DNA from: an uncultured Tropicimonas sp.
GTDB taxonomy: Bacteria; Pseudomonadota; Alphaproteobacteria; Rhodobacterales; Rhodobacteraceae
Assembly: GCA_947497945.1 (NCBI GenBank)
Contig: CANMIP010000009.1
Location: 62,001-126,000 of the forward strand
DNA: 64,000 bases
Direction: 5' to 3'
Positions 27,335 through 57,516 of the stretch are shown piece by piece. Numbering within the stretch: the stretch's first letter is position 1; each line of letters starts with the position of its first letter. Under the pieces are notes generated by a model, which was not told the origin of the DNA, made no database searches, and worked only from the letters and a program-made list of their open reading frames with translations. Position numbers and translations under genes: made by a program.

Positions 27335-29170
27335 TCAGTTCCTCGGACCGGTTTCGACGAAGAAATAGACCCATTCGCCCTTGAAGTCCGGCGTCCGCGC
27401 GCGCGCGTCGGCCACGCGCTCTGCAAGATCGGCGAGATAAGGCGCGGCAGGTTCGACCAGCGGCCGCAGACCGTCGTAAAGCGGGGCGGAACTCGCGAAG
27501 GCGACGACGATCTCCTCCGCGAAAGGCGGTGCGATGAAGCTGCGCAGGAATGGCCGGTCACTGCGTTCGATGCCGGAGGTCAGGCGGCTTGCGGGCGGCT
27601 CCGGCCGGAGCGGAACGGTTTCGTTGGGCTGAAGGTGGATCACGTTCCCGGCGGCGTCGAAATAGTCGATATAGACCACCGCCTCGTAATCCGGCGTGAC
27701 CAGCTCGAGTTCCAGCGGGTCGCCCTCGCGGAACGCATAGGCGCGCACATGGGCATTCTCGCCGATCACAAGCGGGTTGGTTCGCTGGTCGTCAGATTGC
27801 GGCAACCCGACCGCGGCGATTCCCGCAAGCGCCCCGCATTGTGGCGCCGGCAACAGGCGCATTTCGTCCGCAACGCGGATCGAGCCGCCCATCTGCGCCT
27901 GCAGCGCGTCGAGAAGCGGTCCGCGCAACCCGTCTTCCGGGATATGACCGCGCAGTTCCAGTGTTGCTGTCTCCGGACGAAACTCGGTCTGCACCCGTGC
28001 GCAGGGAATGTCGGCCAGCAGCGCGGCCAGCCCATCCCGGAGCTTCTTGCCGTCGCCTTGCGAGAGCGCCTCGGGCTGCATGAAGGCCTGAATCGCGGCC
28101 ATGGAGACCGGGTCTGCCTCGCTTTCGGCCCCTGCCTGCCAGGCGAGCGCCGCGGTCAGGCGGGGCGCGGCTGTGGCAGTATCGGTTTCGACGGCGGGCG
28201 GCGCATCGGACGCACTTGCCGCGACATCCGCCGCCGCCGGGGCCAGATCCGCAAGCGCGGGGGCGGGCGGGCGTTCGGTCTGCGCCTGCCGTGGCGCGGT
28301 GTCGGCGGGGGCGACGGGTCTTGCGCCGAGTTTCGCGACCGGGGCCGCGGTGGCTGAGGGCGGTTCGAAGCGGACCGGAACCGGACGCCCCGCTTCCGCG
28401 TCCACGGGCGTGGTGGAGGGGCGGCGCGTCTCTAATGGGCGTCCCACCGCCGCCTGCAACGCTGATGCGGTTGGTCGCTCCCTCTGCGCGAGGAGCGCCT
28501 GTGCTGCCGGGGCAGCGGCAAGGGCGGTTGCACCTTTTGCCGGGAGCGCCGTGCCGGCCCGCGGGGCCGGCGCTGTTTGCGCCAGATGTTGCGCCGCGCT
28601 GTCCAGCGCGGCAGCGGTGGCCGGGGTCGGGGTGCCGCTCACGGCAGCGGTTGCGGGCGGGCGGGTTTCGCGGGCTGATCCCTGCTCGGGCGCTTGCGAG
28701 GAGAGCGGCTTGGCGCCGGCTGCAAGCGATGCCGAAGGTTGCGGCTGCGCGGACTGGGCGGCTGCCTGCCGTCCCTTCGCATCGAGTGGCGCGGGGGCTG
28801 CGCCGTCCGGCAAACGTCCGGCAAGCGAAACCGCCTCCGGCGTGTCGGCGGCTGCAATCTGCGGTTGCGGGACCCGGGGCGCCAGCCGGGTTTCCGGAGG
28901 TGCGCTGGCGGCGGCCTGGGTGCGCCGGGGCGCATCCTGATGCAGCGCCAACCCCTCGGTCGCCTGGTCGGGCACGGGAGCGGCTTCCGGGGTTGCGGGG
29001 CGGGCCTCGGCGCGACGGACCGGCTCCGCAGCCAGAACGACCTCCGTTGGTGGCGGCGTTTGCTGGGCGACTTCGTCGGGGCGAACCGACAGCGCGAGCC
29101 CGGCCAGCCCCGCTGCGTGCAGCGCGAGCGATGCCGCTCCGGCGAAGGCCCAGTTTGCCGCGCGCGCCAT
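27335..29170 (-). CDS. TonB-shaped envelope protein with PpkA-like C-terminal domain
   Basis: This 611-aa protein has one N-terminal helix (about 10-29) reading SLALHAAGLAGLALS. Ser14, His18 and Leu25 keep the spacing of the Ser-His-Leu residues in the TonB anchor that contact ExbB/ExbD. Residues about 33-330 are a low-complexity Ala/Pro linker, long enough to span the periplasm. The C-terminal part (about 355-611) is folded-looking and, instead of a TonB domain, resembles the PpkA C-terminus (DUF4384-like): both have a GEN motif, then HLxPN, then APL(Y/F)D(G/A)LRP. ATG 29170 overlaps the exbD stop (TGATG). Likely role: force transducer from the inner membrane to an outer-envelope or T6SS partner. 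Confidence 0.7.
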   Translation of the reverse strand: MARAANWAFAGAASLALHAAGLAGLALSVRPDEVAQQTPPPTEVVLAAEPVRRAEARPATPEAAPVPDQATEGLALHQDAPRRTQAAASAPPETRLAPRVPQPQIAAADTPEAVSLAGRLPDGAAPAPLDAKGRQAAAQSAQPQPSASLAAGAKPLSSQAPEQGSARETRPPATAAVSGTPTPATAAALDSAAQHLAQTAPAPRAGTALPAKGATALAAAPAAQALLAQRERPTASALQAAVGRPLETRRPSTTPVDAEAGRPVPVRFEPPSATAAPVAKLGARPVAPADTAPRQAQTERPPAPALADLAPAAADVAASASDAPPAVETDTATAAPRLTAALAWQAGAESEADPVSMAAIQAFMQPEALSQGDGKKLRDGLAALLADIPCARVQTEFRPETATLELRGHIPEDGLRGPLLDALQAQMGGSIRVADEMRLLPAPQCGALAGIAAVGLPQSDDQRTNPLVIGENAHVRAYAFREGDPLELELVTPDYEAVVYIDYFDAAGNVIHLQPNETVPLRPEPPASRLTSGIERSDRPFLRSFIAPPFAEEIVVAFASSAPLYDGLRPLVEPAAPYLADLAERVADARARTPDFKGEWVYFFVETGPRN

Positions 29171-29574
29171 CACGGCTCTCCGGGCGTGACGACCAGCACG
29201 ACATCGCGCGCGCCAAGCGCCTCGATCCGGGCCACGAGCGGGAGCATCTCGCGCAGTTCGGCATCGCGATGGGCGTTGATCCGGATCAGGCGGTCGGGGC
29301 GCTCGGCGAGAATGGCGGCCAGGGCGTCAAGCAGGGCAGGGGAGTCGGTCGCGGCGCCGTTGAGCGCCAGCGCCCCATCGGCGCCGATGGCGACAGTCTC
29401 GCCGCCGCCGGGCAGGGCCGCGCCGGAGGTGCTGTGCGCGGGGTCGACCAGGAAGGGTGCGGTGGCGTCCATCCGCCCGGCCAGCATCGAGAAGACCAGC
29501 AGGAAGAAGACCACGTCGATCAAGGCGATGATCGGCTCGGGCTGGTCGCGGCGGGGGCGGCGGGCGAGCTTCAT
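29170..29574 (-). CDS. ExbD/TolR-family protein, copy 2
   Basis: This 134-aa protein has a single helix (about 15-33, IIALIDVVFFLLVFSMLAG) carrying the proton-path Asp (Asp20) in the family LIDV motif. A periplasmic domain of about 95 residues follows and ends VLVVTPGEP. ATG 29574 overlaps the preceding exbD stop (ATGA). With the ExbB-like protein it should form the proton channel of a TolQR/ExbBD-type motor driving the TonB-shaped protein encoded next. Confidence 0.85.
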   Translation of the reverse strand: MKLARRPRRDQPEPIIALIDVVFFLLVFSMLAGRMDATAPFLVDPAHSTSGAALPGGGETVAIGADGALALNGAATDSPALLDALAAILAERPDRLIRINAHRDAELREMLPLVARIEALGARDVVLVVTPGEP

Positions 29575-29990
29575 TGCGCTTCCCCCATGCGGACAATGCG
29601 CAGCCGCTCGATCCCGGCCTCGGTCGTGATCTCCAGCAGGGAGACGAGATCCTGGTTGCTGGCCTGGCCGGAGGGCAGGAGCACGACCGAAAGGGCGGGG
29701 TCCGCCTCCCGCCGGCTGCGCAGCAGCTCCGCCAGTGCATTCGCGGCGATGGGCTGGCCGCGCAGCAGGGCCTGTCCGGCGGCGTCGAGGCGGATCAGGA
29801 GCGTGCTGGCGGAGGGCGCAGGGCCGGCGCGTGCGGGCGCGGGGGCATCGGCCTGTGCGGCGAGGGGGATCATCCGCAGGTTGAGCCAGGTCGAGGTGAC
29901 CATGAAAAACACGAGCAGGATCATCAGAACGTCGATCATCGGCACGAGCCGGATCACCGCGCTGGCCTGCCTTGTCCTGTTCAGCTTCAT
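29571..29990 (-). CDS. ExbD/TolR-family protein, copy 1
   Basis: This 139-aa protein has the classic N-terminal anchor VPMIDVLMILLVFFMVTS (about residues 16-33) with Asp20 in the PMIDV motif, then a periplasmic domain with an Ala/Pro-rich start (about 47-60). It is closer to textbook ExbD than its neighbour. It starts 26 bp after the ExbB-like gene. Two different ExbD-type subunits in one operon suggest a heteromeric channel core or division of labour. Confidence 0.87.
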   Translation of the reverse strand: MKLNRTRQASAVIRLVPMIDVLMILLVFFMVTSTWLNLRMIPLAAQADAPAPARAGPAPSASTLLIRLDAAGQALLRGQPIAANALAELLRSRREADPALSVVLLPSGQASNQDLVSLLEITTEAGIERLRIVRMGEAQ

Positions 29991-30016
29991 GCCTGGCCCT
30001 CCCCCGGTCCGGCCGA

Positions 30017-30631
30017 TCAGCGCGCCTCCAGCGACAGCAACCGGCCGATCGCGACCTCAATCGCCACGCCGACCCGGTCCAGCCGCGTGCCCAGAAGGTT
30101 GGCGGCGACGGCGGCGGGAATGGCGACGACGAGCCCGACGGCTGTGGTCAGGAGCGCCTGCCAGATGCCGCCGGCGAGGATCGAGGCATTGGCCGCGCCT
30201 TCGGCCAGCGCAAGCTCCTGGAATGCCTCGATCATGCCGAGCACCGTGCCGAGCAGCCCCAGCAGCGGCGCGATCATGCCGACCAGCTCCAGCGTGCGGA
30301 TATGGCGGCCGAGCCGGTCGAGCGTGCGGTTGCCGCGCCATTCCAGATCGGTCTCCAGCGCGTCGCGGGAGCGCCCCGCGAGGGCGCCCTCCATCGCGGT
30401 CGCAAGCAGATCGTCGACCGGCCCGCTTCCGGCCCTGGTCTTCGTCAGCGCCTCCTGACGTGCGCCGGCCTCCCATTCGGTCAGCGCGGCCTCGCGGGTC
30501 TCGGCGCCGGACAGCGCGCCGCGCAGCTCCAGCACCTTGACCACGATCAGCGCAAGGCTCGCCACCGACAGCACCAGCAGCAGCCCGACAATCGGCCCGC
30601 CGCGCGCAAGCATCGCCACGATCTCGTTCAT
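30017..30631 (-). CDS. MotA/TolQ/ExbB-family proton channel protein
   Basis: This 204-aa protein has three helices: about 10-32, about 112-135 (LELVGMIAPLLGLLGTVLGM, the family LLGLLGTVxG signature) and about 155-180 (ALLTTAVGLVVAIPAAVAAN). It provides the pentameric scaffold around ExbD subunits and converts proton flow into motion. It is encoded between a small exported protein (4 bp upstream) and two exbD genes. Confidence 0.9.
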   Translation of the reverse strand: MNEIVAMLARGGPIVGLLLVLSVASLALIVVKVLELRGALSGAETREAALTEWEAGARQEALTKTRAGSGPVDDLLATAMEGALAGRSRDALETDLEWRGNRTLDRLGRHIRTLELVGMIAPLLGLLGTVLGMIEAFQELALAEGAANASILAGGIWQALLTTAVGLVVAIPAAVAANLLGTRLDRVGVAIEVAIGRLLSLEAR

Positions 30632-30635
30632 GGCG

Positions 30636-31073
30636 CTATTTCACGAATCCGGCCGGGGTCTTCGAGGACAGGTCCATGAAGTCGAAGCAATCCACCGGGT
30701 CGGCATTCTGCGGCTTGCAGGCCGTCATCTCGTGCAGCAGCACCTCCGAGATATCGTCGCAGGCGATATCCGGGATCTCGAAGAGTTTCAGTGTCGTGCG
30801 GGCAATCGGCAGCGGTGCGGCATCGATGCTCAGCAGCTGGTCGATCACGCCATTGCCATCCAGGATGGCCAGCGACATCTCGAAGCCATCCAGCGTCTGC
30901 CCGCTCTGGTTGCGGAACAGGAAGAAAGCCCGGCAGCCGCCCGTCTCTCCCTGTTCGAATTTGTTGAGCTCGACCCCGAGCCGTCCTTCCTCGGCCATGC
31001 CGGGAAATACCGGAAGCAGCGCCGCCAGAAGCAGGGCGCGCCCGCCCCGCGCCGTCAAATACCGTCGTGTCAT
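30636..31073 (-). CDS. Small exported four-cysteine protein, first gene of the ExbBD-like module
   Basis: This 145-aa protein starts with a signal peptide (about 1-27) whose TRRYLT could be a twin-arginine motif. The mature domain has four cysteines (in GGCRAF, IACDD, TACKP, VDCFD), presumably two disulphides, and beta-rich composition. I do not recognise a family. It is the promoter-proximal gene of the operon divergent from tssA and lies 4 bp before the ExbB-like gene, so it is probably a periplasmic partner of the motor. Confidence 0.7.
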   Translation of the reverse strand: MTRRYLTARGGRALLLAALLPVFPGMAEEGRLGVELNKFEQGETGGCRAFFLFRNQSGQTLDGFEMSLAILDGNGVIDQLLSIDAAPLPIARTTLKLFEIPDIACDDISEVLLHEMTACKPQNADPVDCFDFMDLSSKTPAGFVK

Positions 31074-31193
31074 GTCAAAAACCTCCCTCTCGCCTGTCCC
31101 TAGGAAGCGGGATGGGAGCCTTTGCGGTCAAGAGAAGAAATGGTCGGGCGCGGGCGGGCGCGCGAAATGAAGTGTAGATTTGTCGGGCGCTTC

Positions 31194-31209
31194 TGGTAAC
31201 GTTGGTGCA
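31194..31209 (+). promoter_or_regulatory. Possible sigma-54 promoter for the T6SS operon
   Basis: TGGTAACGTTGGTGCA has GG and GC separated by 10 nt, as in the -24/-12 consensus TGGCAC-N5-TTGCA, with several mismatches in between. It lies 59 bp before the tssA start in the 194-bp region shared with the divergent ExbBD-like operon. T6SS clusters are often sigma-54 dependent; no activator gene is in the window. Confidence 0.3.
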
Positions 31210-31267
31210 GTGATCGGTGAATTTTTGATCTTTCTAGCCGGTGTATTTTGATCGGAGTTTCCTAATT

Positions 31268-32284
31268 GTGACCTTGGAACTTGCCAGTTTCGCAGATGAT
31301 GCTCCCAGTGGAGAGAATCTCGAATACGACCCCGTTTTCACGGCGCTCGAGATCGCGGCCCAGCCTGGACAAGAGCGCCAGATGGGGTCCGAGATCGTCG
31401 CCGCCGAAGAGCCTGACTATGTCGATATCATAGCGAAGGCGCGTGAGGTCCTGTCGCGCAGCCACGACCTGCGCGCGGCGATCTACCTGGCCCATGCCGA
31501 GCTGCGGCGAAACGGGTTCGAGGGCTTCGCCGAGGCGACCGGCTATATCCGCGGCTGCCTGACCGAGTTCTGGGAGAGCTGTCATCCGCAGCTCGATGAA
31601 GAAGATGACAACGACCCGACGATGCGGGTCAACGCCATGCGCGGGCTGGCGGCACCGGAGACGATTGTGCACGCGCTGCGACTGGCGCCGATGGCCAAGA
31701 GCAATGCTTTCGGGCCGATGACCCTGCGCCACCGGATGATTATCGATGGCGAGCTGGAACCGCATGAGGATGAGCCCACGCCCGATGCGGCGGCCTTCTC
31801 CGCCGCGTTCCAGGACATGGCTGCCGAGACGCGGGATGCGATTTTCGGCGCCGTAAGCCAGGCGATCGAGGATGTCGCGGCGATCGACGCGATTTTCGAC
31901 GAGAAGATCCCGACTTTGGGCCCCGATCTGAACGAGTTGAAGAAGATGCTGGCCCGGATTTCCTCGATCATTTCGGCGGAGACCGGGGTCAGCGCCGACC
32001 CCGTGGCCGAGGAAGTTGCCGAGGACGGTGGAGATGTCCCGGCCGCGGCTGCAACGGCCGTGTCCGCTCCGGGGACGATCACGTCGAGCCGGGACGTGCT
32101 GCTCGCGCTGGACAAGATCATCGAATATTACGAACGGAACGAACCCTCCAATCCGGTGCCGCTCCTGTTGAAGCGGGCACGCAGGCTGGTGGGCGCGGAC
32201 TTTCTTACCATTCTCAATGACCTGGCACCTCTGGGGCTCGATAACGTCAAGCTTGTTGGCGGCATCGGGGACGCAGAGGAGTAA
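31268..32284 (+). CDS. tssA: T6SS component TssA (ImpA N-terminal domain)
   Basis: This 338-aa cytoplasmic protein caps and times sheath polymerisation. The ImpA_N domain is recognised at the start (LASFADDAPSGENLEYDP, about residues 4-21) and through RSHDLRAAIYLAHAELR and GCLTEFWESCHPQLDEEDDNDPTMRVNAMRGL (about 70-145). The C-terminal end with PVPLLLKRARRLVGADFLTIL is the usual TssA tail. GTG 31268 is preferred since it restores the family start; a GTG at 31241 is possible. It opens the T6SS operon. Confidence 0.87.
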   Translation: MTLELASFADDAPSGENLEYDPVFTALEIAAQPGQERQMGSEIVAAEEPDYVDIIAKAREVLSRSHDLRAAIYLAHAELRRNGFEGFAEATGYIRGCLTEFWESCHPQLDEEDDNDPTMRVNAMRGLAAPETIVHALRLAPMAKSNAFGPMTLRHRMIIDGELEPHEDEPTPDAAAFSAAFQDMAAETRDAIFGAVSQAIEDVAAIDAIFDEKIPTLGPDLNELKKMLARISSIISAETGVSADPVAEEVAEDGGDVPAAAATAVSAPGTITSSRDVLLALDKIIEYYERNEPSNPVPLLLKRARRLVGADFLTILNDLAPLGLDNVKLVGGIGDAEE

Positions 32285-32341: not shown

Positions 32342-32860
32342 ATGTCAAGTTCACAGAAATTCATTGCCCGTAACAGGGCGCCGAGGGTGCAGATCGAATA
32401 TGATGTCGAGCTCTACGGCGCCGAGAAAAAGGTCCAGCTGCCCTTCGTCATGGGCGTGATGGCCGACCTTGCGGGCAAGTCGGAGGTGGAACAGCCCGGT
32501 GTGGACGACCGGAAATTCCTCGAGATCGATGTCGACAATTTCGACTCCCGGATGAAGGCGATGAAGCCGCGCGCGGCCTTTGCCGTGCCCAACACGCTGA
32601 CCGGCGAGGGCAATCTCTCGGTAGACCTGACCTTCGAGAGCATGGACGAGTTCTCGCCGGCTGCGATCGCCGAGAAGGTCGGGCCGCTGCGGGAGCTGCT
32701 CGAGGCCCGCAAGGAGCTGGCCAACCTGATGACCTACATGGACGGCAAGCCGGGCGCCGAGGACCTGATGGCCAAGGTGATGGCCGATCCCGCGCTGATG
32801 AAGTCGCTCGCCGCGCAGGCGGCTCCGAGCGAGGATGACGCCAGCGAGGGGGAGGAGTGA
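32342..32860 (+). CDS. tssB: T6SS sheath protein TssB (VipA)
   Basis: This 172-aa small sheath subunit pairs with TssC to form the contractile sheath. Signature residues: SSQKFIARNRAPRVQIEYDVE at the start, LPFVMGVMADLAG (about 36-48) and FLEIDVDNFDSRMKAMKPR. A GGGAG ribosome-binding site precedes ATG 32342. It is separated from tssC by 3 bp. Confidence 0.95.
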   Translation: MSSSQKFIARNRAPRVQIEYDVELYGAEKKVQLPFVMGVMADLAGKSEVEQPGVDDRKFLEIDVDNFDSRMKAMKPRAAFAVPNTLTGEGNLSVDLTFESMDEFSPAAIAEKVGPLRELLEARKELANLMTYMDGKPGAEDLMAKVMADPALMKSLAAQAAPSEDDASEGEE

Positions 32861-32863
32861 TCC

Positions 32864-34360
32864 ATGGCTGAAGAAGCCCTTGAATCCGCCGCTGGCGGTG
32901 CCGCTGCCGAAGCAACGGAATCCGATTTCGCATCCCTTCTGAAGCAGGAGTTCCGCCCGCGCACCGATGCCGCGCAATCGGCGGTGGAGAGTGCGGTCAA
33001 GACCCTGGCCCAGCAGGCGCTGGAAAATGCCAATGTCATCTCCGACGACGTGCTGAACTCGCTGGAGTCGATCATTTCCCAGATCGACAAGAAGCTGACC
33101 GAACAGGTCAACCAGATCATCCACCACGAGGAATACCAGAAGCTCGAGAGCGCCTGGCGTGGCCTGCATCACCTGGTCAACAATACCGAGACCGACGAGA
33201 TGTTGAAGATCCGGGTGATGAACATCTCGAAGAAGGATCTCCACAAGACCCTGCGCAAGTACAAGGGCACCGCCTGGGACCAGTCGCCGATCTTCAAGAA
33301 GCTCTATGAAGAGGAATATGGCGTCTTCGGTGGCGAGCCTTATGGCTGCCTTGTCGGCGATTACCATTTCAACCACAGCCCGCCCGATGTCGAGCTGCTG
33401 GGCGAGATGGCCAAGATCTCGGCCGCGATCCACGCGCCCTTCATCACCGGGGCCGATCCCTCGCTGATGCAGTTCGACAGCTGGCAGGAGCTGTCCAACC
33501 CGCGCGACCTGACCAAGGTCTTCACCACGCCGGAATATGCCGCCTGGCGCAGCCTGCGCGAGAGCGAGGATTCCAAGTATCTCGGCCTCACCATGCCGCG
33601 TTTCCTGGCCCGCCAGCCCTATGGCGCCAAGGGCGACCCGGTGGACGAGTTCGCCTTCGAGGAAGAGACCGGCAATGCCGAGTCCGAGTATTTCTCCTGG
33701 GCCAACTCGGCCTATGCGATGGCGGCGAACATCACCCGGTCCTTCAAGATGTATGGCTGGTGCTCGCGCATCCGCGGCGTGGAATCCGGCGGCACGGTCG
33801 AAGGCCTGCCGACCCATACCTTCCCGACGACCGATGGCGGTGTGGACATGAAATGCCCGACCGAGATCTCGATCCCCGAGCGGCGCGAGGCGGAGCTTTC
33901 CAAGAACGGGATGCTGCCGCTGATCCATCGCAAGAACTCGGATCTCGCGGCCTTCATCGGCGCCCAGTCGCTGCATGCGCCGGCCGAGTATGACGACCCG
34001 GACGCGACCGCAAACGCCAACCTGGCCGCGCGGTTGCCCTATCTCTTCGCGACATGCCGTTTCGCGCATTACCTGAAGAAGATGGTCCACGACAAGATTG
34101 GCTCCTTCAAGAGCCGGGACGACATGCAGGCCTGGTTGCAGAAGTGGATCAGCCAGTATGTCGATTACAACCCGGCCCATTCCACCGAAGAGACCAAGGC
34201 GATGAAGCCGCTCACGGCGGCCGATGTCGTGGTCGAGGAGGTCGAAGGCAATCCCGGTTTCTACACGTCGCAGTTCTTCCTGCGGCCGCATTACCAGCTC
34301 GAGGGCCTGACCGTCTCGCTTCGGCTGGTGTCCAAGCTGCCCTCCGAGAAGGGCGCGTAA
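32864..34360 (+). CDS. tssC: T6SS sheath protein TssC (VipB)
   Basis: This 498-aa large sheath subunit has family blocks ESIISQIDKKLTEQVNQIIHH, ESAWRGLHHLVNNTETDEMLKIRVMNISKKDL, YGVFGGEPYGCLVGDYHF and the C-terminal PGFYTSQFFLRPHYQLEGLTVSLRLVSKLP. ClpV recognises the N-terminal region of this protein after contraction. Length and order with tssB and hcp are standard. Confidence 0.96.
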   Translation: MAEEALESAAGGAAAEATESDFASLLKQEFRPRTDAAQSAVESAVKTLAQQALENANVISDDVLNSLESIISQIDKKLTEQVNQIIHHEEYQKLESAWRGLHHLVNNTETDEMLKIRVMNISKKDLHKTLRKYKGTAWDQSPIFKKLYEEEYGVFGGEPYGCLVGDYHFNHSPPDVELLGEMAKISAAIHAPFITGADPSLMQFDSWQELSNPRDLTKVFTTPEYAAWRSLRESEDSKYLGLTMPRFLARQPYGAKGDPVDEFAFEEETGNAESEYFSWANSAYAMAANITRSFKMYGWCSRIRGVESGGTVEGLPTHTFPTTDGGVDMKCPTEISIPERREAELSKNGMLPLIHRKNSDLAAFIGAQSLHAPAEYDDPDATANANLAARLPYLFATCRFAHYLKKMVHDKIGSFKSRDDMQAWLQKWISQYVDYNPAHSTEETKAMKPLTAADVVVEEVEGNPGFYTSQFFLRPHYQLEGLTVSLRLVSKLPSEKGA

Positions 34361-34367
34361 TTCCCAA

Positions 34368-34421
34368 GCCGGGCGTCTGAGGAGGACGCCCGGCCATCAC
34401 GAACGGGGCCGAATTCGCCCC
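34368..34421 (+). terminator. Tandem hairpins between tssC and hcp
   Basis: A 10-bp perfect stem (GCCGGGCGTC 34368-34377 with GACGCCCGGC 34385-34394, 7-nt loop) is followed by a second (GGGGC 34405-34409 with GCCCC 34417-34421). No U tract follows. They probably act as an mRNA processing or stability element that raises hcp expression relative to the rest. Confidence 0.55.
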
Positions 34422-34443
34422 ATTGCTCCAAGGAGAAAGTACT

Positions 34444-34938
34444 ATGGCTGTTGACATGTTTCTTATTCTCGACGACGGCGCTGTTGCCGGCGAGACCAAG
34501 GATTCTGTTTACGAAGGCGAGGGCGGTATTGACGTCCTGGCATGGTCTTGGGGGATGTCGCAGGGCGGCACCTTCCATGGCGGTGGCGGCGGCGGCGCCG
34601 GCAAGGCGAATTTCCAGGACATCTCGTTCACCAAGTGGATCGACAAGTCCTCGCCGATCCTGATGCTGTATTGCGCCAATGGCGACCACTTCGAGAATGC
34701 CAAGCTCGTTTGCCGCAAGGCCGGCAAGAAGCCGATGGAATACCTGACCATCAAGATGAACAAGGTTCTGGTCACCTCGGTGAGCACGGGCGGGTCCGGT
34801 GGCGAGGATCGCCTGACCGAGAATGTCACGCTGAACTTTGCTGAATCCGAAGTCTACTATATCGAACAGACCGACGATGGCGGCGAGGGGGCCAAGCCGG
34901 AGTTCAAGTGGGATATCCGCGCGAACAAGCCGAAGTAA
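34444..34938 (+). CDS. hcp: T6SS tube protein Hcp (TssD)
   Basis: This 164-aa subunit stacks as hexameric rings forming the inner tube and is also secreted. Family marks: MAVDMFLILDDGAVAGETKD, DVLAWSWGMSQGGTFH, WIDKSSPILMLYCANGDHFENAKLVCRKAG and the final EFKWDIRANK. ATG 34444 follows AAGGAGAAAG. It is flanked on both sides by strong hairpins, unusual inside this compact operon. Confidence 0.96.
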   Translation: MAVDMFLILDDGAVAGETKDSVYEGEGGIDVLAWSWGMSQGGTFHGGGGGGAGKANFQDISFTKWIDKSSPILMLYCANGDHFENAKLVCRKAGKKPMEYLTIKMNKVLVTSVSTGGSGGEDRLTENVTLNFAESEVYYIEQTDDGGEGAKPEFKWDIRANKPK

Positions 34939-34961
34939 GCCCATTGCTTTCCAAGAGAATT

Positions 34962-34988
34962 GCACCACCGGGCCGGGCCCGGTGGTGC
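34962..34988 (+). terminator. Perfect 11-bp hairpin after hcp
   Basis: GCACCACCGGG (34962-34972) pairs perfectly with CCCGGTGGTGC (34978-34988) around a 5-nt loop, 24 bp after the hcp stop. No T run follows, so partial termination or 3'-end protection of an abundant hcp transcript is the likely effect. Confidence 0.6.
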
Positions 34989-35019
34989 GGTGCGAACTTG
35001 CATCCGAGGGGAGCCATTC

Positions 35020-35835
35020 ATGTCCAGCCGCGCCCATGAGCTTCTGCTCGCCAATGATCTGTCCGGGGCTCTCGACGCGCTTCAGGATGCCGTTCGTGCC
35101 AATCCCGCGGATTCGAAACTGAGAGTATTCCTGTTCCAGCTGCTCTGCGTGACCGGAGACTGGAAACGCGCCATCAGCCAGCTCAAGCTCTCGGCGACGA
35201 TGGACGAGGGTGCGGTCGAGATGGCCAAGGCCTATCGCGAGGTGATCCGCTGCGAAGTGTTCCGCGAGGCGGTTTTTGCCGGTGACCGTGAGCCGCTTGT
35301 CTTTGGCGAGCCGCAGGAATGGGTCGCCCTGCTGATGGAAGCGTTGAAACTGCTGGCCTCTGGCAAGGCGAGCGAGGCCGCCGAGTTGCGGGCCCGCGCC
35401 TTCGAAGACGCCCCCGCCCTTGGCGGGTCAATCAACGACACCCGCTTCGACTGGGTCGCCGATGCGGATATGCGGCTGGGGCCGGTGCTGGAGGCAGTGG
35501 TCAATGGCCGCTATTTCTGGATGCCCTTCGCGGCAATCTCGGAGCTTCACGTCGACGAGCCGACGGACCTGCGCGACGCGGTCTGGACCGGGGCGCGGAT
35601 CACGCTTCAGAATGGCGGCGAAGTGACCGCCTTCATCCCGACCCGCTACCCCGGCACCTGCGAGAGCGGCGAGGGCGCGGCGATGCTGGCGAAGCGGACC
35701 GACTGGACCGATGCCGGCGCCGAGACCTTCATCGGGATCGGCCAGCGGCTGCTGGCGACCGAGGCGGAGGACGTGGCGCTGATGGATCTGCGCAGCCTCA
35801 AGATGGACGAGGCCGCGCCGCCTTCCGAGACCTGA
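35020..35835 (+). CDS. tagJ: T6SS accessory protein TagJ (ImpE/SciE family)
   Basis: This 271-aa cytoplasmic protein begins with a TPR-like part (about 1-110, HELLLANDLSGALDALQDAVRANPADSKLRVFLFQLLCVTGDW) and continues with the ImpE core FDWVADADMRLGPVLEAVVNGRYFWMPF and DLRDAVWTGARI. TagJ binds the sheath protein TssB and may help ClpV recycle sheaths. ATG 35020 follows GAGGGGAG. Confidence 0.92.
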   Translation: MSSRAHELLLANDLSGALDALQDAVRANPADSKLRVFLFQLLCVTGDWKRAISQLKLSATMDEGAVEMAKAYREVIRCEVFREAVFAGDREPLVFGEPQEWVALLMEALKLLASGKASEAAELRARAFEDAPALGGSINDTRFDWVADADMRLGPVLEAVVNGRYFWMPFAAISELHVDEPTDLRDAVWTGARITLQNGGEVTAFIPTRYPGTCESGEGAAMLAKRTDWTDAGAETFIGIGQRLLATEAEDVALMDLRSLKMDEAAPPSET

Positions 35836-35838
35836 TTC

Positions 35839-36336
35839 ATGGCCGACAAGACGATAGACGACCGATTGCAGCCCTCGCTGCTGGACCGGCTGACCGATGA
35901 CGCGCCGGGCGAGCTGTCCGAGTCCCGCGCGGCGCGGGTGATCGATATCCGCCGCCTGCGCGATATCCTGCGCCGTGACCTGGCCTGGCTGCTCAACACC
36001 AATAACAACGAGGCCTGGATCGATCGTGACCTTTACCCGCACGTCTTTGCCTCCGTGCTCAATTACGGCGTCTCGCCGGTGGCGGGCGGGGCGACGAACG
36101 AGAAGCGGGTCGAGGTGATCCGCAGCGCGCTCATCGCTGCCGTGCGCCAGTTCGAGCCGCGCCTGCGGGCGGAGACGCTGGACGTTCGGCTGCGCCAGGA
36201 CGAGCAGACGGGCCCGATGTCGATCTTTTTCGACATTCACGGCGACATGTGGGCCCAGCCGCTGCCGCTGGAGCTTTACCTGCGCTCGGAGATCGACCTG
36301 ATGACCGGCCACCTTGAACTGGAAGAGCGGGGCTGA
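35839..36336 (+). CDS. tssE: T6SS baseplate protein TssE (gp25-like)
   Basis: This 165-aa lysozyme-like-fold baseplate wedge protein has family residues QPSLLDRLTDD, RRLRDILRRDLAWLLNT, VLNYGVSPVAG and the C-terminal IFFDIHGDMWAQPLPLELYLRSEIDL. It nucleates sheath assembly. It starts 3 bp after tagJ and ends 4 bp before tssF. Confidence 0.93.
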   Translation: MADKTIDDRLQPSLLDRLTDDAPGELSESRAARVIDIRRLRDILRRDLAWLLNTNNNEAWIDRDLYPHVFASVLNYGVSPVAGGATNEKRVEVIRSALIAAVRQFEPRLRAETLDVRLRQDEQTGPMSIFFDIHGDMWAQPLPLELYLRSEIDLMTGHLELEERG

Positions 36337-36340
36337 ACGC

Positions 36341-38218
36341 ATGGACACACGCCTTCTGCGCCATTACGAGACCGAGCTGGCCTATCTGCGCGAGATGGGC
36401 GAGGAATTCGCCAACGCCTATCCGAAGATCGCCGCGCGGCTCGGAATGGAGGCGTTGGAGGTCCATGACCCCTATGTCGAGCGCCTGCTGGAAGGCTCGG
36501 CCTTCCTCTCGGCCAGGGTGCAGCTCGAGCTGGAGCTGCAATATCCGCAATTTACCGGCCACCTGCTGGAGATCGTCTACCCGCATTACCTCGCGCCGAC
36601 GCCCTCGATGATGATCTCCCAGCTCCATCCCGACATGGAGAATGCCGACCTCGAAGACGGCTACACGGTCCCACGGGGCACACAGCTGCGCTCGGCCTCG
36701 CCTGACGGCGCCTCCTCGCCTTGCGTGTTCCGCACCGGTGCGGACCTGACGCTCTGGCCCGTGACGGTTTCCGAAGCGGAATATATCGATGGGCGCGGCG
36801 AGCTTGTCGCGGCGGGCGTGGCCGGGGCGACCGAGGCCCGCGCCGGGATCCGCCTGCGCCTGCGCCGTCATGGCGGGGCACCGCTGGCCGAGCTGACGAA
36901 GCTCGATGCGCTGACCTTCTTCCTGGGCGGGCAGGGCGGCGCTGGCTGGAAGCTGCTGGAACTGCTCTGCACCGAGACGACCGGGCTTGTCGCGCGCTCC
37001 ACCGACCGCCGGGCCGACTGGGTCGCGCCGCTGCGGGGCGCGCTCAACCATCGCGGTTTCGAGCCCGACGAGGCGCTGCTGCCGACCCCGCGCCGTTCCT
37101 TCGACGGCTATCGCCTGCTGCAGGAATATTTCGCCATGCCGCAGCGCTTCTTCTTCACCGAATTGACCGGGCTGGCGCCGGCGATGATGCGGGCGGCGGG
37201 GGAGGAAGTCGACATCTACATCCTGCTGCGCGACGGCCTTCCGGAGATCGCCCCGGCGATCAAGCCCGAGGCGTTCCAGCTCAATTGCGTGCCGGCGGTG
37301 AACCTGTTCGAGAAGCGTTGCGACCGGGTCCATGTCACACGCGGCGATTTCGAGCAGCATGTCGTGCCGGACCGCACCGCGCCGCTCGATTACGAGATCC
37401 ACAGCGTCCAGAGCGTGACTGCGATCAGCACCGAGGGCGATATCGACGTGCCTTTCGAGCCGTTCTTCTCGGTCGACGACCTGACGCCGCTGGGTGAGGG
37501 CGGCAAGTGTTTCTACACGGTCGCGCGCAAGATGCGGCAGCGCAACGAGCGCGAGCGGCTGCGCGGCGGGCGGACGAATTATCTCGGCTCCGAGGTCTTC
37601 GTCTCGCTGGTCGATGGCGACAACGCGCCCTACCGCTCCGATGTCAGCCAGCTTGCCGTGCGTGCGGTGGTGACCAACCGCGACCTGCCGCTCTTGCTCT
37701 CGACCGGCGCGCCGGACCTCTTCCACCTGCCCGAGGGGGGGCCGGTGGCGCAGGTCACGACCCCGGTCTCGCCGACCCGCCCGCGCCCGACCCTGGCGCA
37801 GGGCGACACGGCCTGGCGGCTGATCTCGCATCTGAGCCTGAACTACCTCTCCATCGCCGATAGCGAGGGGGGGGCCGCGGCGGCGGCCCTGCGCGAGATG
37901 ATCGGGCTCTACGCGCCCGAGAGTGACCGCGCGGTCCGGCGCCAGCTCGAGGGGATCACCGATGTCTCTTCCCGCCCGATCGTCCGGCGGATGAGCGACG
38001 GGATGCTGTCCACGGCGGTGCGTGGGCTGGAGGTGCGGATCGATTTCGACGAGAGCTTCTTCGAGGGCGTCTCGGTCTATCTTCTCGGCGCGGTGCTGGA
38101 GCGCTTCCTGCGCGGGCATGCGACGATCAACTCATTCACCGAAACGGCTCTCGTGAGCCAGCAGCGAGGGGAGCTGAAGCGATGGCGACCGGCGACGGGC
38201 CACGGCAGGATCATCTGA
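36341..38218 (+). CDS. tssF: T6SS baseplate protein TssF (VasA)
   Basis: This 625-aa protein begins MDTRLLRHYETELAYLRE and continues EFANAYPKIAARLGMEALEVHDPYVERLLEGSAFLSARVQ, the canonical TssF N-terminus. It forms the wedge with TssG, TssE and TssK. ATG 36341 is chosen on this basis. The 3' end overlaps tssG by 37 nt in another frame. Confidence 0.95.
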   Translation: MDTRLLRHYETELAYLREMGEEFANAYPKIAARLGMEALEVHDPYVERLLEGSAFLSARVQLELELQYPQFTGHLLEIVYPHYLAPTPSMMISQLHPDMENADLEDGYTVPRGTQLRSASPDGASSPCVFRTGADLTLWPVTVSEAEYIDGRGELVAAGVAGATEARAGIRLRLRRHGGAPLAELTKLDALTFFLGGQGGAGWKLLELLCTETTGLVARSTDRRADWVAPLRGALNHRGFEPDEALLPTPRRSFDGYRLLQEYFAMPQRFFFTELTGLAPAMMRAAGEEVDIYILLRDGLPEIAPAIKPEAFQLNCVPAVNLFEKRCDRVHVTRGDFEQHVVPDRTAPLDYEIHSVQSVTAISTEGDIDVPFEPFFSVDDLTPLGEGGKCFYTVARKMRQRNERERLRGGRTNYLGSEVFVSLVDGDNAPYRSDVSQLAVRAVVTNRDLPLLLSTGAPDLFHLPEGGPVAQVTTPVSPTRPRPTLAQGDTAWRLISHLSLNYLSIADSEGGAAAAALREMIGLYAPESDRAVRRQLEGITDVSSRPIVRRMSDGMLSTAVRGLEVRIDFDESFFEGVSVYLLGAVLERFLRGHATINSFTETALVSQQRGELKRWRPATGHGRII

Positions 38219-39213
38219 GATGGCTTGCCGGACTCGAAGCGGAGCCCGGCGCCCATCACATCTGGCTGGCGATGCGGCTGATCGATGCCGCGCGCACGGG
38301 CCGGCACGGGCTTGGCGAGACGCGGCGCCCGTCCGAGGACGGGATGCGTTTCGGACAGGAGCCGTCGCTTGCTTTCCCGCCGGTCACGTTGACGGCGTTC
38401 GAGCAGGGAGAGGACGACGCGCCGGACCGGTTGACCAACCGGTTTTTCGGCTTTTTCGGCCCCTCCGGCCCGCTGCCGTTGCACCTGACCGAATATGCGC
38501 ATGGGCGCCAGGCCAATGAGCGCGACGAGACCTTCGTCGCCTTCGCGGATATGCTCACGCACCGGATGGCGACACTTCTTTTCCGCGCCTGGAAGACCGG
38601 CCAGCCCGCGGCCGATCTCGACCGGGGGGCGGGCGGCCCGCTGGAAAGCGCCGTGGCGGCGCTGTCGGGGCTGCATGGGGATCACCTGCGCGCCCGCGAC
38701 CGGATGCCGGATCTCGCCAAGCGCCATTTCGCCGGCCATCTCGCGCCCGGGCCGAAGACGCCGGAGGCGCTGGTCTCGATGCTCTCCGCCTTCTTCGCCG
38801 CCGAGGTGCACCTGGAGGAGTTCATCGGCGACTGGCTGGAGCTGGAGCCGGAAGACCACTGGCATCTCGGCGGCCCGGTCGGGCTCGGGCAGGGCAGCGT
38901 GGTCGGGGATCGGGTCTGGAGCCGGGCGGCCAAGTTCCGCCTGCGCGTCGGGCCGTTGAGCCGGGAGGATTACGAGCGGCTGCAGCCTGGCGGGGCGTCG
39001 CTCGAACGGATGGCGGACATCGTGCGCAACCATCTGGGCGAGGTGCTGGACTGGGATGTGAACCTGGTGCTGCGCGCCGGGGACGTGCCGGCCGCGCAGC
39101 TCGGGGCGGACACTCGGCTCGGCCTGACAAGCTGGATCGGCGACCGGGCCGGGATGGGCGATGCGGACGAGCTGTATGTAAGCCCGCAGAGGGATATTCG
39201 GCCCGCGGCCTGA
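38182..39213 (+). CDS. tssG: T6SS baseplate protein TssG (VasB)
   Basis: This 343-aa wedge protein has family segments WLAMRLIDAARTGRHGLGETRRPSEDGMRFGQEPSLAFPP, TNRFFGFFGPSGPLPLHLTEYA and the C-terminal LGADTRLGLTSWIGDR. The start ATG lies inside tssF and is retained because the residues from about 14 onward are needed for the family fold. Confidence 0.93.
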   Translation: MATGDGPRQDHLRWLAGLEAEPGAHHIWLAMRLIDAARTGRHGLGETRRPSEDGMRFGQEPSLAFPPVTLTAFEQGEDDAPDRLTNRFFGFFGPSGPLPLHLTEYAHGRQANERDETFVAFADMLTHRMATLLFRAWKTGQPAADLDRGAGGPLESAVAALSGLHGDHLRARDRMPDLAKRHFAGHLAPGPKTPEALVSMLSAFFAAEVHLEEFIGDWLELEPEDHWHLGGPVGLGQGSVVGDRVWSRAAKFRLRVGPLSREDYERLQPGGASLERMADIVRNHLGEVLDWDVNLVLRAGDVPAAQLGADTRLGLTSWIGDRAGMGDADELYVSPQRDIRPAA

Positions 39214-39250
39214 CGGCTGCCGGGGCAATTTTTGAGGGAAGGGACGTTTC

Positions 39251-41995
39251 ATGTCAGAGATCAGCAGGGTTGCATTGTTCGGCAAGCTCAATGAGGTGGG
39301 GTACAAGGCGGTCGAGGGGGCGACGGTCTTCTGCAAGATGCGCGGGAACCCATACGTGGAGATCGTTCACTGGATGGCGCAGATCCTGCAGCTTCCCGAC
39401 AGCGACATTCACAGGATCATGCAGCATTACGACCTGGAGCCCGCGCGTCTCGCCGCCGACATGCAGAGGGCGCTGGACGCGCTGCCGCGCGGGGCGAGTT
39501 CGATCTCCGACCTCTCGGCGCATCTGGAGAATGCGATGGAGCGGGCCTGGGTCTATGGCTCGCTGATGTACAATTCCAACCAGGTTCGGACGGGGCATCT
39601 TGTGCTCGGCATGGTCAAGACCTCCGAGCTGCGCCATGTCCTGCACGGGATCTCGGGCGAGTTCCGCAAGGTGGGGCCGGACGATCTCTCCGACAATTTC
39701 GGCACTGTTGTCGATGGCTCTCCCGAAGACCGCCTGCGGCCGCAGGACGGCTCGGTCACCGGCGGCGGGGCTGTGCCCGGCGAGGCATCCGGCGCGATGG
39801 CCCCGGCCCAGATGGGCAAGGAAGAGGCGTTGGAACAGTTCTGCACCGACATGACGGCGCAGGCCCGCGACGGCAAGATGGACCCGATTGTCGGGCGTGA
39901 TGACGAGATCCGCCAGATCGTCGATATCCTGATGCGGCGGCGGCAGAACAACCCGATTCTGACCGGCGAGGCCGGGGTCGGCAAGACGGCCGTGGTCGAG
40001 GGCTTTGCCCAGCGGATCGCGCGCGGGGATGTGCCGCCGACGATGAAGGATGCGCGGCTCTTGTCGCTGGATGTGGGGCTGTTGCAGGCGGGCGCGTCGA
40101 TGAAGGGCGAGTTCGAGAACCGGCTGCGTTCGGTGATCGACGAGGTGCAAGCGAGCACGGTCCCGATCATCATGTTCGTCGACGAGACCCATACGCTGGT
40201 CGGCGCTGGCGGCGCAGCCGGGACGGGCGACGCGGCGAACCTGCTGAAGCCGGCGTTGGCGCGCGGCACGCTGCGGACCATCGGCGCGACGACCTGGGCC
40301 GAATACAAGAAACATATCGAGAAGGACCCGGCGCTGACGCGGCGCTTCCAGGTCATCCAGGTGGACGAGCCGGATGTGAAGAAGGGCGTGCTTATGATGC
40401 GCGGCATCGCCTCGATGCTGGAGAAGCACCACAAGGTGCAGGTGCTGGACGAGGGGATCGAGGCGGCGGTGACGCTCTCGGCGCGTTATATCCCGGCCCG
40501 CCAGCTTCCCGACAAGTCGGTCTCCGTGCTCGACACGGCCTGTGCGCGGGTCGCGGTGAGCCAGCATGCGGTGCCGGCGGAGGTCGATGACTGTCGCAAG
40601 CGGATCGATGCGCTGACCACCGAGCTGGAGATCATCGATCGCGACGAGAGCGCGGGCTATGACGTGGATGAGCGTCGCGAGGCGATCTCGGCGCTCAAGG
40701 CCGAGGAAGAGGCACGGCTGACCGAGCTGGACGCCCGTTGGGAGCGCGAGAAGAGCGTGGTCAACGGAATCCTGGAGCTTCGGGCGAAGCTGCGCGCCGG
40801 CGGGATGCCGGTCGATGAGGCCGGTGCAGAGGTGGCCGAGGCCGAAGCGGAAGTGGCCGAAGAGGGGGCCGATGCGGCCGCAGATGCCGCCGCGACCGGC
40901 GAGGCGCGCGCGGCGCTCATGGCGGAGCTGCGGGCGAAGAATGCCGAGCTGATCGAGATCCAGGGCGAGCACCCGCTGATCCTGCCCATTGTGGATTCGC
41001 AGGCGGTGGCCTCCGTCATCGGCGACTGGACCGGAATCCCGGTCGGCCGCATGGTGCGCGACGAGATCCAGACCGTCCTGAACCTCGAAGACCATCTCGG
41101 CAAGCGCGTGATCGGACAGGATCACGCGATGGCGATGATCTCCAAGCGCATCCAGACCAGCCGCGCCGGGCTCGACAACCCGTCCAAGCCGATCGGCGTC
41201 TTCATGCTCGCGGGCACCTCCGGTGTCGGCAAGACGGAGACCGCGCTGGCGCTGGCCGAAGTGCTTTACGGCGGCGAACAGAACGTCATCACCATCAACA
41301 TGTCCGAATACCAGGAGGCACACACGGTCTCCTCGCTCAAGGGCGCGCCTCCGGGCTATGTGGGCTACGGAGAAGGCGGCGTGCTGACCGAAGCGGTGCG
41401 GCGCAAGCCCTATTCGGTGGTCCTGCTCGACGAGGTCGAGAAGGCGCATCCGGACGTGCATGAGCTCTTCTTCCAGGTCTTCGACAAGGGCCATATGGAG
41501 GATGGCGAGGGCCGCTCCATCGACTTCCGCAACACGTTGATCCTGCTGACCTCCAATGCCGGATCGGACCTGATCATGGATATGTGCGCCGATCCGGACC
41601 TGATGCCGGAGCCGGAGGGGATCGCCAAGGCGCTGCGCGAGCCGCTGCTGAAGATCTTCCCTGCAGCACTTCTGGGCCGGTTGGTGACCATCCCCTATTT
41701 CCCGCTTTCCCCGGACATGATCGGCAAGATCACCGTGCTACAGCTCAACCGGATCAAGAAACGCGTCGAGGAGAGCCATGGCGTGCCTTTCACCTACACG
41801 GACGCGGTGGTCGACACGATTGTCGAACGCTGTCAGGAGCTGGAATCGGGCGGTCGGATGATCGACGCCATCGTCACCAACACCATGCTGCCGGAGGTCT
41901 CGGCCGAGTTCCTGCGCCGGATGATGCAGGAGGAACCGATCAAAGGTGTCAATGTCGACGCGGCGGAGGGCGATTTCACGTATGATTTCGGCTGA
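39251..41995 (+). CDS. clpV: T6SS sheath-disassembly ATPase ClpV (TssH)
   Basis: This 914-aa AAA+ unfoldase recycles contracted TssBC sheaths. N-domain about 1-150; first AAA module with GEAGVGKT (239-246); coiled-coil middle domain including an Ala/Glu-rich expansion at about 515-555; second AAA module with GTSGVGKT (about 655-662) and VVLLDEVEKAHPDV; C-terminal D2-small domain to the end. The Ala/Glu-rich insertion is longer than in typical ClpV. It starts 37 bp after tssG. Confidence 0.96.
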   Translation: MSEISRVALFGKLNEVGYKAVEGATVFCKMRGNPYVEIVHWMAQILQLPDSDIHRIMQHYDLEPARLAADMQRALDALPRGASSISDLSAHLENAMERAWVYGSLMYNSNQVRTGHLVLGMVKTSELRHVLHGISGEFRKVGPDDLSDNFGTVVDGSPEDRLRPQDGSVTGGGAVPGEASGAMAPAQMGKEEALEQFCTDMTAQARDGKMDPIVGRDDEIRQIVDILMRRRQNNPILTGEAGVGKTAVVEGFAQRIARGDVPPTMKDARLLSLDVGLLQAGASMKGEFENRLRSVIDEVQASTVPIIMFVDETHTLVGAGGAAGTGDAANLLKPALARGTLRTIGATTWAEYKKHIEKDPALTRRFQVIQVDEPDVKKGVLMMRGIASMLEKHHKVQVLDEGIEAAVTLSARYIPARQLPDKSVSVLDTACARVAVSQHAVPAEVDDCRKRIDALTTELEIIDRDESAGYDVDERREAISALKAEEEARLTELDARWEREKSVVNGILELRAKLRAGGMPVDEAGAEVAEAEAEVAEEGADAAADAAATGEARAALMAELRAKNAELIEIQGEHPLILPIVDSQAVASVIGDWTGIPVGRMVRDEIQTVLNLEDHLGKRVIGQDHAMAMISKRIQTSRAGLDNPSKPIGVFMLAGTSGVGKTETALALAEVLYGGEQNVITINMSEYQEAHTVSSLKGAPPGYVGYGEGGVLTEAVRRKPYSVVLLDEVEKAHPDVHELFFQVFDKGHMEDGEGRSIDFRNTLILLTSNAGSDLIMDMCADPDLMPEPEGIAKALREPLLKIFPAALLGRLVTIPYFPLSPDMIGKITVLQLNRIKKRVEESHGVPFTYTDAVVDTIVERCQELESGGRMIDAIVTNTMLPEVSAEFLRRMMQEEPIKGVNVDAAEGDFTYDFG

Positions 41996-42078
41996 TTGGC
42001 GCGAAGACGGGCAGCGCGTGTTTGGTGGAACGGCCGGGTCGTGGTTAGACTGGTCCATATTGAGAGATTGGATTTGCC

Positions 42079-44244: not shown

Positions 44245-44253
44245 GGGTGTGTA

Positions 44254-46472: not shown

Positions 46473-46494
46473 TGACGAATGACGAGGGCCGCTG

Positions 46495-47832: not shown

Positions 47833-47851
47833 GGAAAGGAACGGGAGGAAC

Positions 47852-56695: not shown

Positions 56696-56743
56696 CCGCG
56701 CCTCCCTGCGCAAACCCGCCCACCCCGGACGGGCGAAAGGGGA

Positions 56744-57337: not shown

Positions 57338-57516
57338 ATGAGACTCCAATAGCATTCGATAACTGCAAGCAGCCTACAGCAGGCTTTCCCTCGCGGCAAC
57401 GCAGAACGCGTGCGGACAGGTGCCCTCTGGAAGCGCCAATCCGGGCTTGCCTGATTGACGCCGGGAGAGTTTACTCGAGGCCGAAGTTATTGATCAAAAA
57501 CTGACAGGTTGACCGA

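Follow-up and report, generated by a model that had tools for sequence, protein, structure and literature searches.

A candidate TonB/ExbBD-type motor dedicated to the type VI secretion system of Rhodobacteraceae may feed PpkA control of assembly

Introduction

What does a set of genes for a TonB-type motor do beside a type VI secretion system (T6SS)? The question is raised by an uncultured Tropicimonas sp. (Rhodobacteraceae), in a 64,000-nucleotide stretch (hereafter, the window) of contig CANMIP010000009.1 (C9), part of a 5.8-Mb assembly. At positions 27335-31073, five minus-strand genes lie divergent from tssA. They encode a small four-cysteine protein (C4), an ExbB/TolQ-like protein, two ExbD-like proteins, and a long TonB-shaped transducer. 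A first-pass annotation, made from sequence alone, proposed that they form an envelope machine driven by the proton motive force, probably working with the T6SS, for example in energizing signaling by the kinase PpkA. To our knowledge, the signal that PpkA senses and the device that senses it are settled in a few species only, and the known inputs differ.

We find that the five-gene module is dedicated to the T6SS, a conclusion strongly supported by its distribution, and that it is found in T6SS-bearing genomes even where the two are not adjacent. We give a probability of about 0.65 to the reading that it is a TonB/ExbBD-type motor from an alphaproteobacterial TonB cassette, dedicated to the T6SS and feeding PpkA/Fha control of T6SS assembly.

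Results

The first gene of the cassette, C4 (30636..31073, minus strand, as are all five), encodes a 145-amino acid (aa) protein with a signal-like N-terminus, four invariant Cys, and a predicted all-beta fold. It had no Pfam match at E ≤ 1, and a profile search returned no solved structure for it. The gene for an ExbB/TolQ-family proton-channel subunit (30017..30631; PF01618, E 1.2e-29) follows after 4 bp and that for ExbD1 (29571..29990; PF02472, E 4e-20) after a further 26 bp; two stop/start overlaps then join ExbD1 to ExbD2 (29170..29574; PF02472, E 1.4e-13) and ExbD2 to the transducer (27335..29170). The transducer is 611 aa long if it starts at the ATG overlapping the stop of ExbD2, or 612 aa if it starts at a GTG. 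It comprises a TonB-like N-terminal helix (S-x3-H), a Pro/Ala-rich linker, and a C-terminal BON/DUF4384-like domain (residues ~370-611). The five packed genes drawn by the first-pass annotation are thus real: all are open reading frames (ORFs) in those places, and Pfam confirms the ExbB and ExbD families.

We collected public loci of this kind, which we call t1, as the best 80 of 136 C4 relatives found when 84,980 species genomes were scanned (some shared with the family sample described below). Because the five genes recur in identical order in 73 of the 80, their arrangement is not due to chance; the other seven lack only the transducer and are cut short. On a Leisingera plasmid (L234), the genes are annotated as hypothetical protein, MotA/TolQ/ExbB family, ExbD, ExbD, and DUF4384 protein, and the cassette is likewise divergent from tssA, with one extra hypothetical gene between them. 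In the window, tssA starts at a GTG (31268) with GGAG upstream, leaving a 194-bp divergent intergenic region (31074..31267). The first-pass annotation had described this as a promoter region shared with tssA. The distance stands; because a scan found no sigma-70-like promoter in the 194 bp (0 found, 0.1 expected), we only infer a common promoter region. The promoter/terminator scan as a whole found nothing.

Conserved residues point to a working motor. ExbB scores 103.1 bits against a PF01618 cutoff of 22.9, and its transmembrane Thr residues are kept in 98 of 98 aligned rows. The transmembrane Asp is conserved in both PF02472 paralogs (ExbD1, 98/98; ExbD2, 97/97), as are the four Cys of C4 (98/98). 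Near the transducer N-terminus, S-x3-H stands in 84 of 90 readable t1 transducers (SLALH in the window), L088 having been dropped for a stop codon. The other six (L081, L082, L086, L093, L118, and L131) have S-x3-N, with Asn in place of the TonB-type His; Asn can reportedly replace His20 of TonB. Ser16 and His20 of Escherichia coli TonB, in the N-terminal transmembrane helix, touch ExbB, according to the available text of PMC12215075. L048 was left out of the transducer alignments (stop codon in the stretch), near-identical rows were culled (leaving 71 of 89 and 73 of 98), and the A3 and A4 alignments (53 and 57 rows) hold only the window and rows from public loci. Taken together, the module would be a proton-driven motor, with force generation predicted from these families and residues.

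Several known identities were rejected. ExbB or TolQ proper is not indicated, with NCBIfam scores below the curated cutoffs (TIGR02797, 66.1 versus 206.2 bits; TIGR02796, 86.4 versus 221). Neither Tol-Pal nor plain TonB uptake is, since equivalog scores fall far under cutoff and TonB_C is missing. The Zorya system (ZorAB) was dismissed because PADLOC ZorA/ZorB models gave 0 matches for the five proteins at E ≤ 0.01; the NCBIfam ZorA2 model gave ExbB 15.2 of 700 bits.

The distribution of the module follows that of the T6SS. We sampled 198 genomes from 197 genera of the same family, using the 243-aa transducer end as the query. It matched 22 genomes, one of which (G122) was dropped as its match is a kinase. 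TssF occurs in 45 of the 198 genomes, and all 21 module genomes are among them (hypergeometric P = 3.4e-16). The C4 profile picks out the same set, scoring at least 205 bits in exactly these 21 genomes and at most 85 elsewhere (64 of the 198 have any match). C4 or the transducer lies on the same contig as TssF, no more than ~15 kb from it, in 17 of the 21. Two others (G037 and G124) have module and TssF on separate contigs, with the module beside ppkA (in G124, also beside tssK-M); the last two keep both T6SS and module, lying ~750 kb apart (G093) or on different contigs (G094). Across the class (385 alphaproteobacterial genomes), no other genome reached a module-type C4 score, the best being 125 bits.

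The public loci agree: of seven core T6SS genes, two or more are present in 68 of the 80, and tssA, a core gene, or ppkA occurs in 75, leaving five with no T6SS marker. A TssF search was made for 11 of the 12 loci that hold one core gene or none; it covered 10 genomes (at least one, that of L151, also in the family sample) and found TssF in nine. The dedication to the T6SS that the first-pass annotation had called probable, and the co-occurrence across genomes on which it turns, are therefore borne out by all 21 module genomes and by these 68 loci. The module also keeps company with a particular kinase: the PpkA C-terminus was found in 21/21 module genomes versus 9/24 other T6SS-positive genomes (Fisher test, P = 3.9e-6; the ninth is G122).

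In the window, this kinase is a PpkA-type Ser/Thr kinase (54557..56713, minus strand; PF00069, E 5.3e-34); its C-terminal periplasmic domain and the transducer end are homologous. BLASTP relates the two at 7e-6 with 25% identity, and hhalign at 98.0% and E 2.9e-13 over 194 columns. Pfam finds neither TonB_C nor TonB_2 (PF03544/PF13103) in the window transducer at E ≤ 1, only BON_like and DUF4384 below cutoff (DUF4384, 16.6 versus 27 bits). The original description of the end as PpkA-like, not a TonB domain, thus holds. The predicted structure (pLDDT 83) has an alpha/beta BON-like half and a beta-rich half, and its matches to solved structures are a weak one to YscD (E 0.002) and others at E ~0.1 or worse.

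Outside the family, a profile of the transducer end matched 9 genomes in a sample of 378 from the phylum: that of the window, two whose matches were checked and are kinases, and six with weaker, unchecked matches. The two (L252 and L253) are Ser/Thr kinases from another family of the phylum; of the ends found outside the family, theirs are the closest relatives of the t1 transducer end. Each adjoins an FGE-sulfatase-like ORF (read by eye), which we take to be TagR-like.

A second cassette makes a similar pairing. Found through the weaker C4 matches in family genomes, from which 20 stretches were fetched, the t2 cassette consists of C4, ExbB, ExbD1, ExbD2, and a transducer of ~415-590 aa without TonB_C (no match at E ≤ 0.1 in four t2 transducers). 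It adjoins genes for a PP2C phosphatase and a Ser/Thr kinase in six loci (L214, L215, L217, L221, L224, and L262, one from a genome beyond the 198), all of which except L224 also place it next to tagF/tssM in a T6SS cluster. The L224 stretch (G026, contig C44) has pppA, kinase, t2, caspase, and OmpA genes and no T6SS core genes; the TssF of this genome is on a different contig. Of the 198 genomes, 14 matched the profile of the t2 transducer, 10 of them strongly (E < 1e-60), and these 10 are all TssF positive (P = 1.6e-7). They do not overlap with the 21 t1 genomes; the TssF of seven belongs to a lineage separate from that of the window. In a class sample of 318 genomes, the one t2 match (G458) is a family member with its cassette inside a T6SS cluster. 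The t2 cassette of G159 is cut by a contig end, and in G121 a C4 relative (L216) adjoins tssF-G-H and a caspase gene, in a stretch where ExbB and ExbD gave no match. A simple division of T6SS-positive genomes into those with and without the module was dropped once t2 appeared.

The t2 transducer end matches the end of the t2 kinase (hhalign, 99.5%, E 1.5e-22), as t1 does with its own. The cross-comparisons are far weaker: t1 transducer with t2 kinase, 0.27% (E 0.23); t2 transducer with t1 PpkA, 0.65% (E 0.087); the two transducer ends, 1.7% (E 0.029); and the two kinase ends, 15% (E 0.0017). Thus, by these profiles, which are thin for t2 (8 and 5 rows), each transducer end appears to resemble its own kinase more than its counterpart transducer.

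TssJ is distributed almost in reverse. Its family, PF12790, had no match in the genome of the window and occurs in 11 of the 45 T6SS-positive genomes: 1 of the 31 with a t1 or t2 transducer (G031, with both cassette and TssJ) versus 10 of the 14 without (G159 among them; Fisher test, P = 3.1e-6). Among 27 genomes grouped with the window by TssF score, TssJ occurs in 0/22 with a cassette versus 3/5 without (P = 0.003). Likewise, the available text of a study of roseobacter T6SS clusters gives T6SS1 all core genes except tssJ (PMC9515649). These patterns would suit a motor that replaces TssJ, coupling the outer membrane or peptidoglycan for a T6SS membrane complex, with no PpkA signaling. On a TssF tree (43 rows used), however, only three changes in TssJ are counted, and the independent-pairs comparison comes out at 2 versus 0 (sign test, P = 0.5; G022 and G083, with two TssF each, were left out). 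Because of this, the near exclusion is a lead rather than a result, and relatedness could explain it. Furthermore, three genomes have neither a complete cassette nor TssJ (G121, G131, and G197), G031 has both, a divergent TssJ may escape PF12790, and C4 matches no Pfam family, so that it was rejected as a TssJ. We therefore consider replacement of TssJ unlikely.

Relatives of the four-gene core (C4, ExbB, ExbD1, and ExbD2) are found elsewhere in Alphaproteobacteria, where they appear from gene content to be ordinary TonB cassettes. The C4 profile matched 38 of the 385 class genomes. An ExbB-like gene and ExbD genes occur in 13 of the 20 stretches fetched from this search, four of them with ~5 kb between ExbB and C4, and T6SS profiles had no match within these 13 stretches. 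In the remaining seven, C4 has no ExbB beside it; one of these is a second copy from the genome of the window (L174; contig C3, ~169113-169511), a lone C4 relative with no ExbB/ExbD in its stretch. All seven Pfam-scanned transducers of cassettes without T6SS genes carry TonB_C (L175, L180, L183, L186, L191, L223, and L230). TonB-dependent receptors adjoin three cassettes (L180, L193, and L223), and genes that read as haem-transport-like, without profiling, flank four (L193, L223, L230, and L231). C4 accordingly belongs to the TonB cassette and not to the T6SS. Homologs are therefore not mainly away from the T6SS in the case of the five-gene module with the PpkA-like end; those of the four-gene core do occur away from it, ending in TonB. 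The first-pass annotation is well supported on T6SS dedication and missed both this origin and the second cassette.

A tree of concatenated C4, ExbB, ExbD1, and ExbD2 (43 rows; L180 was too short and left out) separates the two T6SS cassettes. The t1 clade (100/100) has cassettes from other families as its neighbors, and several of these cassettes carry TonB_C; the t2 clade (100/100) groups with haem-type cassettes (100/99; two of seven scanned for TonB_C). A single clade of t1 and t2 is rejected (p-AU 0.015). Two separate recruitments of TonB cassettes appear to fit these data best.

This ancestry raises the possibility that the module is still a transport motor, for TonB-like uptake, T6SS effectors, or envelope polymers, that hitchhikes with T6SS loci and has no control role. 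Receptors, haem-transport-like neighbors, and TonB_C in the core relatives speak for it. Against it, TonB_C is missing from all five T6SS-type transducers scanned (one t1 and four t2), no receptor was found in the scanned ORFs of the window, transducer ends match the local kinase in two lineages, and T6SS and module persist together where not adjacent (G093, G094, and four of five marker-free public loci). We judge this quite unlikely. Finally, it is very improbable, though nothing specific speaks against it, that the transducer is a decoy whose PpkA-like end sequesters the ligand of PpkA and damps the T6SS, with the motor recycling the transducer: this sign variant of the best explanation draws on the same domain kinship and cassette-kinase co-occurrence.

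The T6SS cluster beside the cassette begins with tssA (31268..32284, plus strand; NCBIfam TIGR03363, E 7.5e-57) and continues on the same strand (32342..54181) with tssB, tssC, hcp, impE/tagJ, tssE, tssF, tssG, tssH, vgrG, a DUF6931 gene, fha, tssK, tssL-OmpA, tssM, tagF, and pppA (PP2C). The names tssB and tssC are putative and follow from place and from homology to loci such as the annotated L234. The DUF6931 protein (44254-44862) lies between vgrG and fha. Next to ppkA is a gene for a Pal-like OmpA-family protein (56744..57355, minus strand; PF00691, E 3.4e-18). Beyond it, the gene at 58439..59929 (plus strand) encodes a caspase-family (C14) protein that begins with a signal-like segment and carries Sel1 and peptidoglycan-binding domains. 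Relatives lie within the locus in 54 of the 80 t1 loci and beside several t2 cassettes, and the protein may be one more component of the machine.

Apart from the module, TonB-receptor and Tol families did not turn up among the Pfam-scanned ORFs of the window (45 ORFs including the module, a subset of the total). The first-pass statement that neither a TonB receptor nor tol/pal genes are nearby thus stands for receptors and Tol within those ORFs, while for pal it is not strictly shown, given the Pal-like protein beside ppkA.

Discussion

How might such a motor act? Energizing PpkA signaling is our best reading, with coupling to PpkA, whether by contact or through a ligand common to both, and the direction of the effect all proposed from sequence. 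ExbB and the two ExbD paralogs would use the proton motive force, and the N-terminal helix (S-x3-H) of the transducer would couple to ExbB. The long Pro/Ala linker would extend into the periplasm, carrying, in place of the outer membrane-binding TonB_C, a domain of the PpkA periplasmic-sensor kind. There, the transducer would most likely bind the envelope ligand of PpkA, or PpkA itself, which is the simplest option because the arm carries a domain homologous to that of the kinase. It would then probe or pull its partner as TolA and TonB do, and the input would pass to PpkA, the phosphatase PppA, and Fha to license T6SS assembly. C4 would be an accessory inherited from the TonB cassette.

This scheme draws on what is reported of PpkA elsewhere. 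In the available text of PMC6082577, its periplasmic domain is activated by TagR in Pseudomonas or RtkS in Serratia, with different domains; in that of PMC12607579, PpkA phosphorylates Fha and promotes T6SS assembly.

A more far-reaching version, which we offer only tentatively, is that the proton motive force gates the T6SS: on two occasions, each in its own T6SS setting, a TonB motor would have swapped its receptor-binding tip for a sensor domain like that of its PpkA, giving a force arm that loads or strips the envelope ligand of the kinase and covers envelope coupling where TssJ is missing.

Several observations weigh against control through PpkA by a dedicated motor, or against parts of it. 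The t1 profile scores the two kinases from another family of the phylum at E 2.3e-21 and 3.5e-18, versus 4.1e-6 for the local PpkA. Because kinases elsewhere score higher, the t1 transducer domain need not derive from the local kinase, and its copying from that kinase is not supported; the domain is of the kinase-sensor kind, and not demonstrably a copy. Nine T6SS-positive genomes have PpkA of this type without a t1 module (G009, G026, G068, G088, G118, G122, G162, G175, and G197; t2 is present in G026 and G175), so the kinase can do without it. Among the five marker-free public loci, four genomes have TssF and the assembly of L090 does not. The t2 cassette lies away from TssF in 6 of its 10 genomes (on another contig in G026, G056, G147, and G166; far away in G149 and G175), and in three t2 genomes (G026, G056, and G175) TssF belongs to the t1 lineage. 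Four t2 matches were weak (G004, G028, G121, and G131); G028 has no TssF, the G131 match is a kinase, and the other three are unchecked. Because the t2 profiles are thin and the kinase cross-pair reaches E 0.0017, the t1 and t2 ends may be remote kin, and a single recruitment followed by concerted change of t1 and t2 may be an alternative to two. The three genomes with neither complete cassette nor TssJ belong here as well.

Comparison with known systems clarifies what the module shares and what it lacks. Like TonB-ExbB-ExbD systems, including those with two ExbDs, it has ExbB and ExbD family members, the ExbD Asp and ExbB Thr residues, the S-x3-H helix, and a Pro-rich linker, and it is kin to C4-ExbB-ExbD1-ExbD2-TonB sets. 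It differs in lacking TonB_C, in its end of the PpkA-sensor kind, and in having the T6SS, not a TonB-dependent receptor, as its genetic partner. The motor of Tol-Pal (TolQRA-TolB-Pal), of the same ExbB/TolQ family, pulls an envelope partner. The module, however, scores only 86.4 of 221 bits with the NCBIfam tolQ model and 40.1 of 127.3 with that for tolR, and there is no TolA or TolB in the scanned ORFs of the window.

Other systems resemble the module in proposed role. TagQRST in Pseudomonas aeruginosa and RtkS in Serratia are envelope inputs to the periplasmic domain of PpkA (PMC6082577, available text), the role proposed here for the module. RtkS is a single periplasmic protein, whereas the input proposed here is a TonB-type motor; by gene make-up, they are not homologous. 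TagQRST includes an ABC transporter (TagS/TagT), and none of TagS/TagT, TagQ, or TagR is among the five module genes. In the TssW-PpkA-Fha system of Acidovorax citrulli, an envelope protein also acts with PpkA on T6SS assembly; TssW is an outer membrane protein, unlike a motor (PMC12607579, available text). Among the matches listed, titles and opening abstracts in the open-access literature gave no description of an ExbB/ExbD/TonB module serving a T6SS, in line with the first-pass remark that no system of this make-up was described. The main text of the roseobacter T6SS paper, so far as it is available, does not mention ExbB, ExbD, TonB, TolQ, or PpkA (PMC9515649).

Our results suggest that the motor helps decide when the T6SS is built or fired in Roseobacter-related bacteria. 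If true, a TonB-derived motor with a kinase-kind sensor would be a new sort of PpkA input. We know of no earlier tie of T6SS activity to the proton motive force, and such a motor would be the first. The question is open to single point mutations, in the ExbD Asp or the TonB-type His, and nature supplies a specificity experiment in the kinase and transducer ends, which match each other in two lineages. That cassette and TssJ almost never share a genome, in turn, bears on how alphaproteobacterial T6SSs manage without this lipoprotein.

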